This document shows, one piece after another, positions 55,052 through 64,000 of a stretch of DNA of 64,000 nucleotides. Within the stretch, counting starts at the first letter, position 1; each line of letters starts with the position of its first letter. A program made the position numbers and the translations under genes. Origin of the DNA: Neopestalotiopsis rosae (Eukaryota > Ascomycota > Sordariomycetes > Amphisphaeriales > Sporocadaceae); NCBI GenBank assembly GCA_023078685.1, contig JALGAS010000005.1:4898001-4962000 (forward strand). The letters are read 5' to 3'. Below the pieces are notes generated by a model, which was given only the letters and a program-made list of their open reading frames with translations, searched no databases and was not told where the DNA came from.

Positions 55052-55061
55052 CTCCCCCTGT
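55052..55061 (-). promoter_or_regulatory. Polypurine tract of young copia element
   Basis: Sense-strand ACAGGGGGAG directly before the 3' LTR (TGTTGCAC), the usual plus-strand primer position. It overlaps the end of the polyprotein frame by one base. Confidence 0.85.
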
Positions 55062-58000
55062 TAAACAGTATCGGTCAAGTTTAACAGTTTTACGAACTTT
55101 TGGAATTTATCCCTGGGAAGTGGTTTCGTAAGGCCGTCTGCTGGAATATCATTCGTCGATATATATTCGATACGAATATTTTGATTTTCGACTTCTTGGC
55201 GGACGTAATAATACCGTATAGCAGTATGTTTCGTCCTTTGATGATATTCGGGGTTATAAGCCAAATTAATGGCTCCCGTATTATCTCCTTTAATTAATAC
55301 GGTATTAATATTAATACCGATTTCTTCGAGGAGATTTTTCAACCAAATAGCCTCCCGGGTAGCCTGCTCTAGCCCGTTAAACTCGGCTTCGGTGGTTGAT
55401 AAGGAAATCGTTGACTGTCTTTTGGATTTCCAACTTATCGGTCCGTTATTTAAGGTAAATAAATAACCGGACGTAGATTTACGGGTTTCGTAATCCCCAG
55501 CAAAGTCGGCATCGGAATATCCTATTAATCCGGGTTTTATAGTCCCGTTATAGGTGATTCCAAGGTGGAAATGGGATTTTATATAGTTAAAAACCCTTAT
55601 TACCCCTTTTATCGAAGTATTCGATGGGTTTTGCATGAATCTGGCTAAAAACGATACGGGGTAAGCCAGATCGGGCCTGGTTTGTACCATAGCGTACATT
55701 AATCCACCTAATAAGTGCTGGTATCGGTGGATAAATTCCGAAGAAGCCGGTTTTTCGTTGGTTTTATTAGTATACAACGATTTCGGAAAACCAGGACTTA
55801 GCGGTATACTGGATGGTTTTATATCGGAAAAACCGTTAATTTCCAGTAGGCGTTTGAGGTAAGTTGACTGGTTGATGCGAATGGTTTTCTTTTCCCGGTT
55901 TCTTTCAATTTGTATACCGAGAAAATACGAAACTGGTCCCAGGTCTTTTATTTCGAAATCTTTCGAAATATCCTGTTTTAATTGGTTGATTTTTCGTAAA
56001 TCAGGACCAAAAATCAGGAAATCATCCACGTAAGTAATAATAAAGATATTAGAATCTTTATTATAATACGCTGATTCGTCTGAAATAAGTGGATTAAATC
56101 CGAGCTTTTTCAAGGCGTTTTTCAGTGTGATTTGCCATTGACGTGGACTTTGTTTAAGGCCGTATAGTGCCTTTTTCAACAATATAGCCTGGGTATTATC
56201 GTCTTTCCATCCGAAATTATTTAATTCCGGATTTTCGGCAAGGAAGTCGGATAATCCGGTTATCGGGGTAATAAATACTTCTTCGTTTAATTCCCCGTTT
56301 AAGAAAGCACCGATTATATCGATTTGTTCGATTTCCCAGTCGTAGTATGCAGAGAGAGCTAATAAAAGCCTCCAGGTAGTGGATTTTGTTCCCGTAGCGA
56401 AGGTTTCGAAATAATCGATACCGTATCGTTGTTCGAATCCACGTACCACCAGTCTTGCCTTATACCGCTCAATATTACCGTTTTTATCGGTTTTTTCTTT
56501 TAAAAACCCATTTAACGGTAAGTGGGTATTTACCGGCTTTTTGGATTTCATCACGATCGATTGCCTGAAAAGTCCCTTTTCGTATAAGTTGCCGAAGTTC
56601 TTCGTGGGCAGCTTGCAGCCAATTTTCCTTTTCCGGCGTTTTTAACGCTTGTTTAAGCGTTTTCGGTTCAGTATAGCCGTTATCGATCGTGGAATAATAC
56701 GAGATATCAGCGAATAATTCGTCGTATTTAACGAATTTATCTCGTTCTTCTTCCGTAAGTTTCGGAAGGACTACTTCGATATTCGATCTCGGAATATTCG
56801 AAATGGTATCGGATTCGGTGTTCCCGGGTAAGTTCGGTCGTTCGCTGATACCGGGTAGGTTCGGTCGGTCGATATCCATGGCCGTGCATTCTTCCCTTGA
56901 CCGGAGGTTATAAGGGCTATTAATCCCTTGACTTTCGTTCTCAAATGAACCGATGGTTAAGTTATCCGACTTAGCGTAACGGTTAATATTTGCGGCTTCT
57001 GCCGTGGGGTTCGAGGTTCGATTCCCCGGAACGGTGGTTCGAAAGTCATTAGAATGCTGTGAATTCTCCGAATTGTGTAAATTCTGAAGATTATCCGAAT
57101 CCTGTGAATTCTCCCCCTCTTTTCGATCTTCCGGTAATAATCGAATATGGGAGGTCCGTATAATTCGTGATTTATACGGTCGATCAGCAATATAGACGTA
57201 GTAAATTTTATTACCACTATAGCCGATTATCTTTCCGTTTTCGGTAATATTACCGAATTTATCGGAAGTGACCCGATTTTCTTTTGATTTATATACCAAA
57301 ACAGGCGTTCCAAGGGCATGGATGGTAGATACGTCAGGCTTATTATCCCGTTGTGGCCAGAAATAATCGTAAAATTCCTGGTAAGGGGTAAGCTGACCGG
57401 ACGATGTAGCCGTAATATTTACTAAGTAAACAACGGCTTTTACAACGAATTCCCAGAGGTTTTTCGGGAGTTGTAAATCGATAAAAACCGTACGGGTTTT
57501 TTCGATAATAATTCGATTCGTCCTTTCGGCAATACCGTTTTGTTCCGGTGTATACGGAGTAGTGGGTTCGAAAATAATCCCTTTTCCGGTTAAATAATCG
57601 TTTAATTTAACCGGGGAAAACTCCCTGCCGTTATCCATGCGAATCACATTCGGGTATCGACCGAATTGTGTTTTATAATATTCGATTTTCTTGGTAACGA
57701 TATCGAATATTTCAGACTTTTCCTTGGAAAACTCCACGTCACGGAAGCCGGTTTTATCATCGGTAAAGCCGGTTATATAATTATAACCGGAATAGCTGGA
57801 TGGGGTAATATATACCGTATCGATGCAAATTCGATATAGTGGTATATCTGCCCGATTAGGATTAATACGGGCTTGGTTACGGGTAATTTTACCCGAAAGG
57901 CAAGATTCGCAATGGAAATCTTCCTTTTTTATTTCCCCCTTCGGTATACCAGCAGTTATTTTAGCTGTTTTAGCTAAAATATCGAAGCTAGGGTGGCCAA

Positions 58001-59428
58001 GGACCTTATGCCATCGTTCCGTAGCTGTGAGGAAATTCGAATTATTATTTAATAATTCGACTTCTTCGAAATCCGTAAAATTATCGGATTTCTTTACCGA
58101 TTCCGGTTCCGGGTAAGCCACGTCGAGTATACGGGCTTTTTCCACTGTTTTTAGTGGATTTATGGCTAAGTAAGCCATATCGGGTTCCGATTTATTTGCT
58201 ACGTGAAGAAAAGAAACCACGTTTTCCTTGATTTAACGTAGCAAACGGACGATTCTTAGAATCGCAAAGTTTATTCCCGCTTATAATACCACCTTTCTGG
58301 TAGTGAAGCTGGCCGGACATAATATTTAGCGGAAATTCCGGAATGTAGAGTACGTTTAATAACGTAATTTTACGTATTTCCCGGTTAATTTGGAATGGAA
58401 GAACGATTTTTCCTATTCCTTTTGGAAATACTTTTCCACCCACCCGTAATAACCGGTGGTAAACCGGTTTTTTCGGTGAATTCGACGAATAATTTCTTAT
58501 TATTCGCAATATGCTTCGAAGAACCAGTATCGTATAGCCACCAGTCTCGTGGAACGGTATTGAATTTCCGATTATTCGGAATATCCGAAAAAGAATAAAA
58601 TGATTCTTCTTCGGTGGTTTCTTCGGAATCACGTGGTGGTTTTCCTCGATTTTGTGACTTATTCGAGGAACGGGTGGATGAAGTCGAAGTATTCGGCTTA
58701 TTCGACTTATTCGAATTATTCGAATTATTCGATTTATTCGAATTCCACCGTTTCTTTCCGCTTTTGGATTCCCATCGATTTTGATTGGTCCGGGAATTTC
58801 GGGACTTATTCTTATTACCCGTAAAATAAGAATTTCCCATTACCGAATCTGGATCCCGTCGGTTTTCGTCTAATATATCGGTTATTAGACTTTCCAAATC
58901 AGGGGGTGTAAGTGACCGTAAGGCACTTCTTTGACGATCTGCCTATATAGGGTAGGCTGACTGGAGGGCGGCTATAAAGATCGTCTTTTGATCGATATCG
59001 TCGATCTTTGCCCCAACGTTTAAAAGCTTGGATAAATAGCTTTTAAAACTGGAAATAAACTCGTTTAACGAGTTATAATTCTCGAATTTTATAGTATGGA
59101 ATTCGAGGTATAGCTGCTGTCGAAGGACGGGACCGGTGCCTTGATAGGCTGATTGTAAAGTCGATAGAGCCTTATACGGATCAAGTTCATCGAAAATCAA
59201 ACTTAACGGTTCGTTCGTTAAGTTTTGACGAATCAGAAGCAACGCTTGGGCTTTTTGTATCTCGGTTATACCGATATACGTTTCAGGTTTTTCGAAAAAA
59301 CCGTCTATACCCAGCAGCTTCATATATAACTGTATAGTGGATTTCCACGTATTCCAGTTATCCGAACCAGAGAGTTTCTGTTTCTCCGGCATTTGGCAAC
59401 CGGATAAGGCACGTATAGTGCCATCCAT
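55061..59428 (-). pseudogene. Copia Gag-Pol polyprotein with one stop and three frameshifts
   Basis: Starts at the ATG 59428. Domains in order: Gag (NWNTWKSTIQLYMKLLG, UBN2-type), a basic Asn/Ser-rich segment with no CCHC knuckle seen, aspartic protease DTGSS, pre-integrase H-H-C-C (RWHKVLGHPS, CESCLSG), integrase D-D-E core (CIDTVYI, RMDNGREF, QNGIAERTNR), reverse transcriptase (YVDDFLIFG) and RNase H (GYSDADFAGDY, LSTTEAEF, HTAIRYYYVR), stop at 55061. Breaks: an in-frame TAG at 58945-58943 (CAG-to-TAG would be RIP-like) and three single-base frame changes at a G-rich repeat near 58437-58445, a T run near 58206-58216 and an A run near 56491-56496. Each is explained by one extra base. The pol domains otherwise look well conserved. 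Confidence 0.92.
58691..58745. repeat. Imperfect 9-bp tandem repeat in gag
   Basis: Repeated TTCGAATTA / TTCGACTTA units in the plus strand, coding on the minus strand for the Asn-Ser-Asn-Lys-rich linker of the copia Gag. Confidence 0.75.
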
Positions 59429-61720: not shown

Positions 61721-61927
61721 TGTGACAGGACCTACGGTTCTGTAAGAGCAATCCACTTGACGTAGCTTAGATAAGCCCATTTGGGGCTGGAGTAGTATAT
61801 AGCAGTGTATATCTGCCCATTTCATTTGTAGAAATCAGACTTCTATCACTCACTTTTCGAACCCCATGCTTTCGTTCCCATCTGGTGATTCTATACCCAT
61901 ATGTCAAATGCTCCTCTAACTGTCACA
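61721..61927. mobile_element. Solo LTR or small non-autonomous element, 207 bp
   Basis: Island of normal composition inside the RIP relic. It starts TGTGACAG and ends CTGTCACA (perfect 8-bp terminal inverted repeat, TG..CA ends) and is flanked by the direct repeat CCTTA (61716-61720 and 61928-61932). This is what a solo LTR, or a short LTR-type non-autonomous element, leaves. Its lack of RIP scars says it arrived after the surrounding element was mutated. No coding capacity. Confidence 0.65.
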
Positions 61928-62640: not shown

Positions 62641-62920
62641 TGTAACGACTATACTACGGGTTTCTAGAATAAACCTGAGTATAAGAGGTGTTGGGGGTTT
62701 ATGCTAACAGGGAACGCTAGCCAAGATACTGAACTGAGCAATGAGTAACTGAAGATGGTGGTCCTGAAATGATTCACAAGTGTAGTCGTCAAAGCGTATT
62801 GAATGCTTCACCTATGGGTAAGATAGATGCTTAGATTGATCACTGAGGTAATGACTGTCTATGTAACCGTAGGAAATCCCTCCCTAATATATCCATTCAT
62901 TCCCTCACTGATGTTTGCTT

Positions 62921-63020
62921 GGATCATACCAACAAGTATGATCCCCTTTGTTCTTGGATCTTATGGATCACAATGATCCTTGTGATCCATGCCAATGGAT
63001 CATTGCCAAGGCCATGATCC
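62921..63020. repeat. Cluster of GGATCAT/ATGATCC motifs inside gypsy LTR
   Basis: Nine GATC-centred words in 100 bases, in both orientations (GGATCAT, ATGATCC, GGATCTT, GGATCAC, TGATCCA and repeats), able to form alternative hairpins. Located in the LTR, so possibly part of its promoter or terminator. Confidence 0.75.
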
Positions 63021-63038
63021 TGTCAACACTTGTTGACA
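63021..63038. repeat. Perfect inverted repeat TGTCAACA-CT-TGTTGACA
   Basis: 8-bp arms with a 2-bp spacer, immediately after the GATC-rich cluster inside the gypsy LTR. May be a hairpin or a dimeric protein-binding site. Confidence 0.75.
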
Positions 63039-63288
63039 GCTGGCGGGGGTGGCTGGGTCTTTTGGCCAGGGCCGTGGTCACTGCCCCGCAGCATACCTTC
63101 TTAAGCGCCAACACAGTTGTTTGTCCTTCTGCAAGGGTGCATGTTCGTAACATCAGCTCCCTTCTCCATGTCTTTTGTCCTCGAAAGACTTAGGCCGCAT
63201 AAGTAGGTCGCGTCCCCATCTGTGCCGTGTCCCTTAAGTTCCCTTCCATATCCTTCCCTTCTTGCTTTCCTTGTGATGGGTGCTCATC

Positions 63289-63789
63289 ATGTCAGATCCT
63301 TCAGTCCCTGCTCGTAAAACACTCGAGCGCTTAAACCTTTTGGAATTTGTGAAAAAGAACGGTCGTGCTGCCGATATGCCTTGCACGCCTTGCTGGAAAA
63401 ATAAGACGACTTGCGTCATGTCGGAGGAAAGGTCGAATCGATGTCTGGAGTGCATCCGTCATCCGACTCGGAAGTGCGATGGTGTTCTGGTAGCGTCTTC
63501 TCTCCGAAAGGTGTTGGATCAGCAACAGAAGTTGGAGAAGGAGGAAGAGGAAGCTAGTGATGATCTGCTGGCTCTTCACGAGAAGATGGCAGAACTTCAG
63601 TCTTCTTTAGCCGCTGCTGCTGGTCGGTTATCTCGTATCCGAAAGATCCGTGCTCGTGCGAAGGCGAAGGGGTCCGAGTTGTTCCAGCGAGGAATGGAGG
63701 AGCTGGACAAGGAGGATGGTCTGTTGCCTGCCTTGGATAGCCACGAGCACTTCGTGGTGGAGGACCTTCAGTCTTATGGGGGTTTCTAA
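63289..63789 (+). CDS. Antisense ORF in gypsy element, Zn2Cys6-like cysteine cluster plus coiled coil
   Basis: 166 residues from the ATG at 63289; the frame is open slightly further upstream from a GTG at 63280. It lies on the strand opposite to the gypsy pol, between the chromodomain stop and the 3' LTR, and its TAA overlaps the pol TAG (63786-63789). Residues 32-63 have six cysteines spaced C-x2-C-x6-C-x9-C-x2-C-x7-C (C32, C35, C42, C52, C55, C63), the spacing of GAL4-type binuclear zinc clusters, although the loop CWKNKTTC is less basic than usual. Residues about 72-118 form a Glu/Lys/Leu-rich predicted coiled coil (VLDQQQKLEKEEEEASDDLL), then a basic RIRKIRARAKAKG stretch and an acidic tail. 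The intact frame in a mobile element suggests selection or recency. DNA binding is inferred from spacing only. Confidence 0.7.
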   Translation: MSDPSVPARKTLERLNLLEFVKKNGRAADMPCTPCWKNKTTCVMSEERSNRCLECIRHPTRKCDGVLVASSLRKVLDQQQKLEKEEEEASDDLLALHEKMAELQSSLAAAAGRLSRIRKIRARAKAKGSELFQRGMEELDKEDGLLPALDSHEHFVVEDLQSYGGF

Positions 63790-64000
63790 CGAGGTGGATT
63801 GGTCTTCACTTGGTTTCGGAAGTGATTTTGTAGATCTTGGTCCTCTTGTTGAGACCGGAGATACTGGTCAAGAGCGGCGCAGCCCTCAACATGCTTCCTA
63901 GGTTCCCAAGTGTTTTCCTCAGGTGGGTAGTCTTTCCATTTAACGTGGAATTGGTATCCCCGTCCGACTTTCTTATGGTCGATGATTTCCTCAACGACGT
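63786..64000 (-). CDS. Ty3/gypsy (chromovirus) Pol, C-terminal chromodomain, partial
   Basis: Enters from the right edge and ends at TAG 63788-63786. The minus-strand frame reads VVEEIIDHKKVGRGYQFHVK, then WKDYPPEENTWEPRKHVEG and CAALDQYL: a chromodomain with the aromatic positions and W-x-x-Y / T-W-E-P signature. Chromodomains at the end of integrase mark chromoviruses and are thought to guide integration to heterochromatin, which fits its landing in a RIP island. Integrase, RT and Gag lie beyond the window. The frame is intact within the visible part. Confidence 0.9.
   Translation of the reverse strand, partial: VVEEIIDHKKVGRGYQFHVKWKDYPPEENTWEPRKHVEGCAALDQYLRSQQEDQDLQNHFRNQVKTNPPR

Follow-up and report, generated by a model that had tools for sequence, protein, structure and literature searches.

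The antisense gene and the element that carries it

The window analyzed here comprises the whole stretch of 64,000 nucleotides from Neopestalotiopsis rosae (contig JALGAS010000005.1, positions 4,898,001 to 4,962,000), and at its right-hand end it holds the 3' long terminal repeat (LTR), an antisense gene and the terminal portion of pol of a Ty3/gypsy chromodomain retrotransposon (Table 1). The complete element measures 7676 bp at its locus (L031). Both LTRs are 512 bp long and 100% identical, located at L031 641-1152 and 7805-8316 in a blastn comparison of the LTR stretch with the locus; their termini read TG...CA and a 5-bp target duplication, CGTAA, lies on either flank. The gag frame (837 codons, stop-free) encodes a Ty3 capsid and a zinc knuckle, and the equally stop-free pol frame of 1188 codons runs on the minus strand. 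Above the Pfam cut-offs we found Ty3_capsid, zf-CCHC, gag-asp_proteas, RVT_1, RT_RNaseH, Integrase_H2C2, SH3_Tf2-1 and Chromo, with rve (26.5 versus 32.6 bits) and Integrase_p58_C (21.7 versus 27) below them. Capsid, zinc knuckle, protease, reverse transcriptase, RNase H, integrase and chromodomain are thus all present between the LTRs, as expected of a Ty3/gypsy chromodomain element. The element is young and was active very recently.

Table 1. Features of the retrotransposon end within the window (window coordinates; aa, amino acids)
Feature	Position	Strand	Remarks
3' LTR	62641..63152	-	512 bp, TG...CA; identical 5' LTR beyond the window
TATA-like stretch of the sense promoter	62885..62891	-	seen in the sequence; putative promoter role
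Three GGATCA-N12-TGATCC dyads	62921-62944, 62965-62988, 62997-63020 (62921..63020)	.	candidate operator array
Further inverted repeat, CTGTCAACA/TGTTGACAG	63020..63039	.	adjoins the dyad array
Spacer, LTR to antisense gene	63153..63288	.	sequence identical in 30 copies read
Purine-rich stretch at the LTR edge, pol sense	within 63153..63288		presumed polypurine tract
Pyrimidine-rich tract	about 63230-63273	+	with CATAAGTA, presumed antisense promoter
Antisense gene, shortened 166-codon form	63289..63789	+	ATG start; stop 63787-63789
Zn2Cys6-type cluster	63382..63477	+	residues 32-63
Single long helix	63481..63714	+	residues 65-142, predicted; presumed coiled-coil dimerization region
Acidic/aromatic tail-coding stretch of full-length copies	63776..63901	+	out of frame in the window copy
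3' end of pol	63786..64000	-	stop 63786-63788; pol extends past the window
Chromodomain of pol	from 63858 on	-	Chromo PF00385, E 5e-16, pol residues 1118-1165

A translated search of the genome (53.8 Mb) with the antisense protein, performed irrespective of stops, returned 47 matches, six of them identical to the window protein, 32 at 99% and nine weaker. All 30 copies that were read share an identical start of the frame over 480 bases; ungapped comparison shows no LTR mismatch in 28 of them, and their flanks are of 27 different kinds. The element underwent a very recent burst. The antisense position beside pol recurs in the loci L033, L034 and L035, in a diverged element (L036) and weakly in L037, and another diverged copy (L032, the C4 copy) carries the frame beside a pol remnant. 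The older copy L033 has been mutated by repeat-induced point mutation (RIP), and L034 and L035 look so by eye. Random breakage of the frame in other copies, which the first-pass annotation had named as an outcome speaking against a gene, was not seen among copies without RIP mutation. As an observation on genome location, 15 of the 38 near-identical copies sit no more than 20 kb from the end of a contig, and telomere repeats occur at several contig ends; this may reflect a subtelomeric preference or contigs broken at repeats.

The intact 166-codon frame that had been annotated opposite pol, between its chromodomain and the 3' LTR, is present, and its stop codon overlaps that of pol as described. 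The window copy belongs to a minority, with six of the 38 near-identical copies ending after 166 amino acids (aa) and 32 being longer; the reading of 30 copies gave 24 proteins of 203 aa and six of 166 aa. The shorter form results from a frameshift immediately ahead of the pol stop: residues 163-203 of the protein P0001, which is 97% identical to the window protein, match L031 1776-1898 at 100% in another frame. In the 203-aa form the last ~37 codons are antisense to the end of pol, and the end of the tail lies opposite the end of the chromodomain. Since 32 of the 49 relatives with a stretch preceding the first cysteine (from 130 proteins fetched) measure 189-226 aa, we regard the 203-aa form as the family norm. 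Its acidic tail (39 residues with a net charge of -5) also contains aromatic residues, a composition that would be compatible with an activation surface. The shortened frame occurs in six copies (L001-L006) with six different flanks, and therefore the tail is either dispensable in cis for transposition or supplied in trans. The 166-aa form can be considered a tail-less version, perhaps dominant-negative, perhaps neutral.

Cysteine cluster, coding constraint and predicted fold

The spacing of the six cysteines is as previously annotated, C32-x2-C35-x6-C42-x9-C52-x2-C55-x7-C63. Fungal Zn2Cys6 clusters follow the pattern C-x2-C-x6-C-x5-12-C-x2-C-x6-8-C, and the window protein fits the corresponding PROSITE pattern. 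In 200,000 residue shuffles neither this pattern nor a looser version was matched once, so that it is not expected by chance. Three protein searches recovered relatives, mostly 45-65% identical, from Xylariaceae, Pseudomassariella, Fusarium, Hapsidospora, Colletotrichum, Trichoderma, Metarhizium, Sarocladium, Cordyceps, Akanthomyces, Microdochium, Parathielavia and Camillea, all of which we take to be Sordariomycetes, and from many metagenome contigs. For 81 of the 111 proteins from one search the alignment covers the cysteine region, with gaps there in 15 and with residues at all six positions in 66. The cysteine conservation that had been proposed as a check was borne out: all six are kept in 56 of these 66, and the remaining ten carry 16 replacements, every one of them to tyrosine, which a single G-to-A change of the kind made by RIP would produce. 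The strict PROSITE form is matched by two of the 111, the first loop being 7 or 8 residues in some and the residue following the second cysteine differing. Protein databases select for open frames, and openness in the relatives is no evidence by itself. One family member, P0038 from Fusarium oxysporum f. sp. albedinis, bears the database name Secreted in xylem 9, which is probably a mislabel of a retrotransposon gene.

The length of the frame alone is weak evidence, because a frame of at least 160 codons also turned up in 18 of 2000 dinucleotide-shuffled versions of the 637 bp from the LTR to the pol stop (52% G+C). More informative is L032, a different, diverged element in which 48 of 183 differences are of RIP type. 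Over 134 codons aligned with the window family, this single pair, whose alignment was built on protein similarity and thus favors matches at positions 1 and 2, shows 57, 40 and 86 differences at codon positions 1, 2 and 3 (43, 30 and 64%; saturation 0.72-0.74 of sites) with the frame open. Neutral simulations at equal total divergence gave on average 5.8 stops; ten of 5000 were stop-free and none reached the position bias. Hardly any of the aligned codons overlap pol, and the L032 frame ends early farther on, in the tail. Within the limits of one comparison, the diverged copy shows coding constraint at the amino-acid level. Judged by sequence comparison, the frame is a real, coding and conserved accessory gene of the element.

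AlphaFold2 models were examined for P0001 (mean predicted local distance difference test, pLDDT, 76.9; predicted template modeling score, pTM, 0.36) and for the relative P0018 (81.5 and 0.47). Both models predict a short helix behind each CxxC, then a helix of nearly 80 residues and then a shorter helix; the two CxxC helices are packed as in a binuclear cluster fold, and in P0001 the pLDDT is about 95 across residues 81-130. A zinc-cluster-like domain followed by a helix, as annotated at first pass, is therefore backed by the predicted fold. Of the coiled coil predicted there, the long helix stands in the model, and the coiled coil and the dimer remain presumed.

Foldseek searches against 350,542 PDB chains at E up to 10 matched the P0018 model exclusively to Zn2Cys6 domains (16 of 16; Put3, Hap1, Leu3, Pho7, Ppr1, Gal4 and AlcR), each weakly at E 0.3-2.2. 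For P0001 the top five of 13 matches were Zn2Cys6 domains (Pho7, Leu3), the sixth a chain of the CBF3 kinetochore complex and the others unrelated. VIA, which re-examines Foldseek's own candidates only, listed Zn2Cys6 domains in 17 of 17 rows for P0018 and in 10 of 13 for P0001. The cluster alone superposes on Lac9 and Hap1 with a root-mean-square deviation of 1.9-2.2 over 33-39 residues, compared with 5-11 in rows that include the helix. The curated cut-off of PF00172 (Zn_clus), 21 bits, was missed, the best score being 17.9 bits (P0018); matches at E up to 1, located at the cluster, were obtained for 13 of 38 members and none for the window protein. Because of these scores, we label the protein Zn2Cys6-type by motif and predicted fold and not a PF00172 member. 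With this definition, the antisense protein is very probably of Zn2Cys6 type.

Between cluster and helix, the translations of many relatives carry signs of an intron. The junction behind a VASS motif is visible in 66 of the 130 fetched proteins, 44 of which continue with L and 22 do not. Seventeen of the latter continue with R or C, six of these with RE, which is what translation across a donor C|GTGAG would yield. In many cases a helix-only relative begins just past the junction, sometimes with MTD, behind which a branch-point-like ACTGAC may stand, and P0089 and P0012 form two halves on contigs both 2364 long. Such signs occur at one conserved position in P0011, P0032, P0089/P0012, P0093, P0096, P0107 and others. 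They point to an intron that separates cluster from helix in many of the elements, a reading based on translations, with some of the 22 junctions being gene models with other choices; the window family is without it. Only the antisense orientation of the gene relative to the genomic RNA would let an intron survive retrotransposition, since the sense RNA does not splice it out.

Inverted repeats in the LTR and neighboring elements

The three dyads of the LTR have arms of 9, 11 and 7 perfect pairs, and in the sense of pol the array lies upstream of the TATA-like stretch with ~30 bp between them. Dyads of fixed spacing are the typical target of a zinc-cluster dimer. Counting perfect inverted repeats with arms of at least 9, the LTR contains three (two dyads and the adjoining repeat) versus a mean of 0.025, a number reached in none of 2000 shuffles. 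The dyad pattern with one mismatch, which was picked after the sequence had been seen, has five matches in the window, four of them in the LTR array, versus 0.19 expected. Genome-wide we counted 277 exact dyads versus zero for a reversed control pattern. In all 50 of the listed exact dyads, located on C1 and C2, the spacer is one known from this LTR or a near variant of one. In a diverged LTR, L043, which differs at 77 of 503 positions, two of the three dyads are preserved exactly, and in L044 one of 24 half-site positions is changed versus 30 of 385 elsewhere.

Elsewhere in the window, a 207-bp solo LTR of another element (61721-61927, TGTGACAG...CTGTCACA) with CCTTA on both sides lies in AT-rich, RIP-like DNA. 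A Copia-type pol in two overlapping frames occupies 55061-58220 on the minus strand (RVT_2 1.7e-49, GAG-pre-integrase 5e-9, integrase core below cut-off), with additional short frames nearby up to 59428.

Proposed role and known systems

The HBZ protein of human T-cell leukemia virus type 1 (HTLV-1) is expressed antisense from the 3' LTR side, binds DNA as a dimer with a helical zipper and suppresses viral transcription from the LTR. By analogy, we give an even chance to the explanation that the antisense protein forms a zinc-cluster dimer through which the element regulates its own LTR. A promoter within the 3' LTR or the spacer would drive the gene, and the product would be a small, presumably nuclear regulator with an N-terminal Zn2Cys6-type DNA-binding cluster and a long dimerizing helix, in full-length copies complemented by the acidic/aromatic tail as a possible activation or co-factor surface. 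The zinc-bearing dimer would bind the three LTR dyads just upstream of the TATA-like box of the sense promoter and thereby tune the element's own transcription, damping being our guess for the sign. Two observations weigh against this: CGG triplets are absent from the candidate sites, and the half-sites of L043 are no better conserved than the remainder (8 of 36 changed versus 77 of 503 overall). A wider version, put forward tentatively and with somewhat less confidence, is that fungal Ty3 elements in many ascomycetes carry a feedback regulator composed of an antisense Zn2Cys6 dimer and a fixed-spacing LTR operator array, which would be an independent counterpart of HBZ built from a host transcription-factor fold, the antisense orientation allowing an intron in many elements.

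Other roles would be compatible with part of the data. The protein may instead serve the retrotransposition cycle, as a nuclear DNA-binding dimer that escorts the cDNA/integrase complex or picks integration sites, with the dyads serving a host factor. Plant antisense proteins at this position are partly nuclear and have been proposed to aid retrotransposition (excerpts of PMC7264820). The co-occurrence of the gene with pol and the chromodomain also points in this direction, but the tail-less 166-aa form reached six distinct sites, though trans complementation is possible, and the one fixed dyad spacing fits a dimeric binder, so that we consider this role unlikely. Slightly less likely still is an action on host genes, by a transcription factor of fungal origin that the element captured and that targets host promoters or rivals the host's own zinc-cluster factors. 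Zn2Cys6 factors form a large class of fungal regulators and a fungal gene would be the simplest source of the domain, yet for this motif at least the spacers shared by the listed dyads point to the element itself; given the dyads, the LTR is the preferred candidate target over host genes.

That the antisense RNA matters rather than the protein, by pairing with the sense RNA and feeding silencing, has been raised for such transcripts (excerpts of PMC7264820), but constraint at the amino-acid level and the conserved cysteines require a protein, which renders this improbable. Finally, a chance frame held open by base composition could draw on the long frames found in shuffled sequence. Against it stand the divergence of the relatives, the conserved cysteines, the codon-position bias of L032 and the Zn2Cys6-like fold, which we judge sufficient to make it hardly credible.

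With the self-regulator as the preferred explanation, its position can be compared with described genes. An antisense extra gene, brtn, is said to have been reported from the Boty element of Botrytis cinerea by Zhao et al. (2011, Virology 417:248-252). Excerpts of PMC7264820, PMC8365987 and PMC4227169 present brtn as an additional gene in antisense orientation, carried by a chromodomain-bearing fungal gypsy element and placed between pol and the 3' LTR, and it thus shares orientation, location and element type with the window gene. The first-pass remark that no described fungal element was known to code a zinc-cluster-like protein at this site is not supported as it stands, though none of the excerpts calls BRTN a zinc-cluster protein. 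By this description the two may well belong to the same gene family. A Monilinia transcript is similar to truncated Pol and BRTN (excerpt of PMC5987419), and the excerpts of a survey of fungal LTR elements (PMC3248453) contain no such antisense gene. Antisense open reading frames (ORFs) of plant gypsy elements (Grande gene23, RIRE2, Retand ORF4, PvRetro13 ORF2) have the place and orientation of the window gene, some products are nuclear and a regulatory role has been proposed, according to excerpts of PMC7264820; no zinc-cluster protein is mentioned for them (the word zinc has 0 occurrences in that text), which sets them apart by description. The literature searched held no description of a zinc-cluster protein at this antisense place, nor of LTR dyads. 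As far as that literature extends, the domain assignment, the wide family and the LTR dyads are new, the kind of location being already known.

The likeness to HBZ lies in an antisense retroelement protein of dimeric DNA-binding type, a type presumed in the case of the window gene. HBZ differs in being a bZIP protein instead of a Zn2Cys6 one and in belonging to a human retrovirus, where it acts through ATF/CREB and CBP/p300, and no homology is expected. Put3, Hap1, Leu3, Gal4, Ppr1 and Pho7 share the predicted cluster fold and the cluster-then-helix order, whereas the window family falls below the Pfam cut-off, totals about 200 aa, has a longer helix and candidate sites without CGG triplets.

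The functions of antisense extra genes of LTR retrotransposons (aORF-3R) have been called yet unknown (excerpts of PMC7264820). This family offers a defined domain, a candidate LTR target of fixed geometry and natural variants with and without the tail, making the question of function testable. If the proposed role is true, retroelements and retroviruses would have evolved antisense self-regulators independently.
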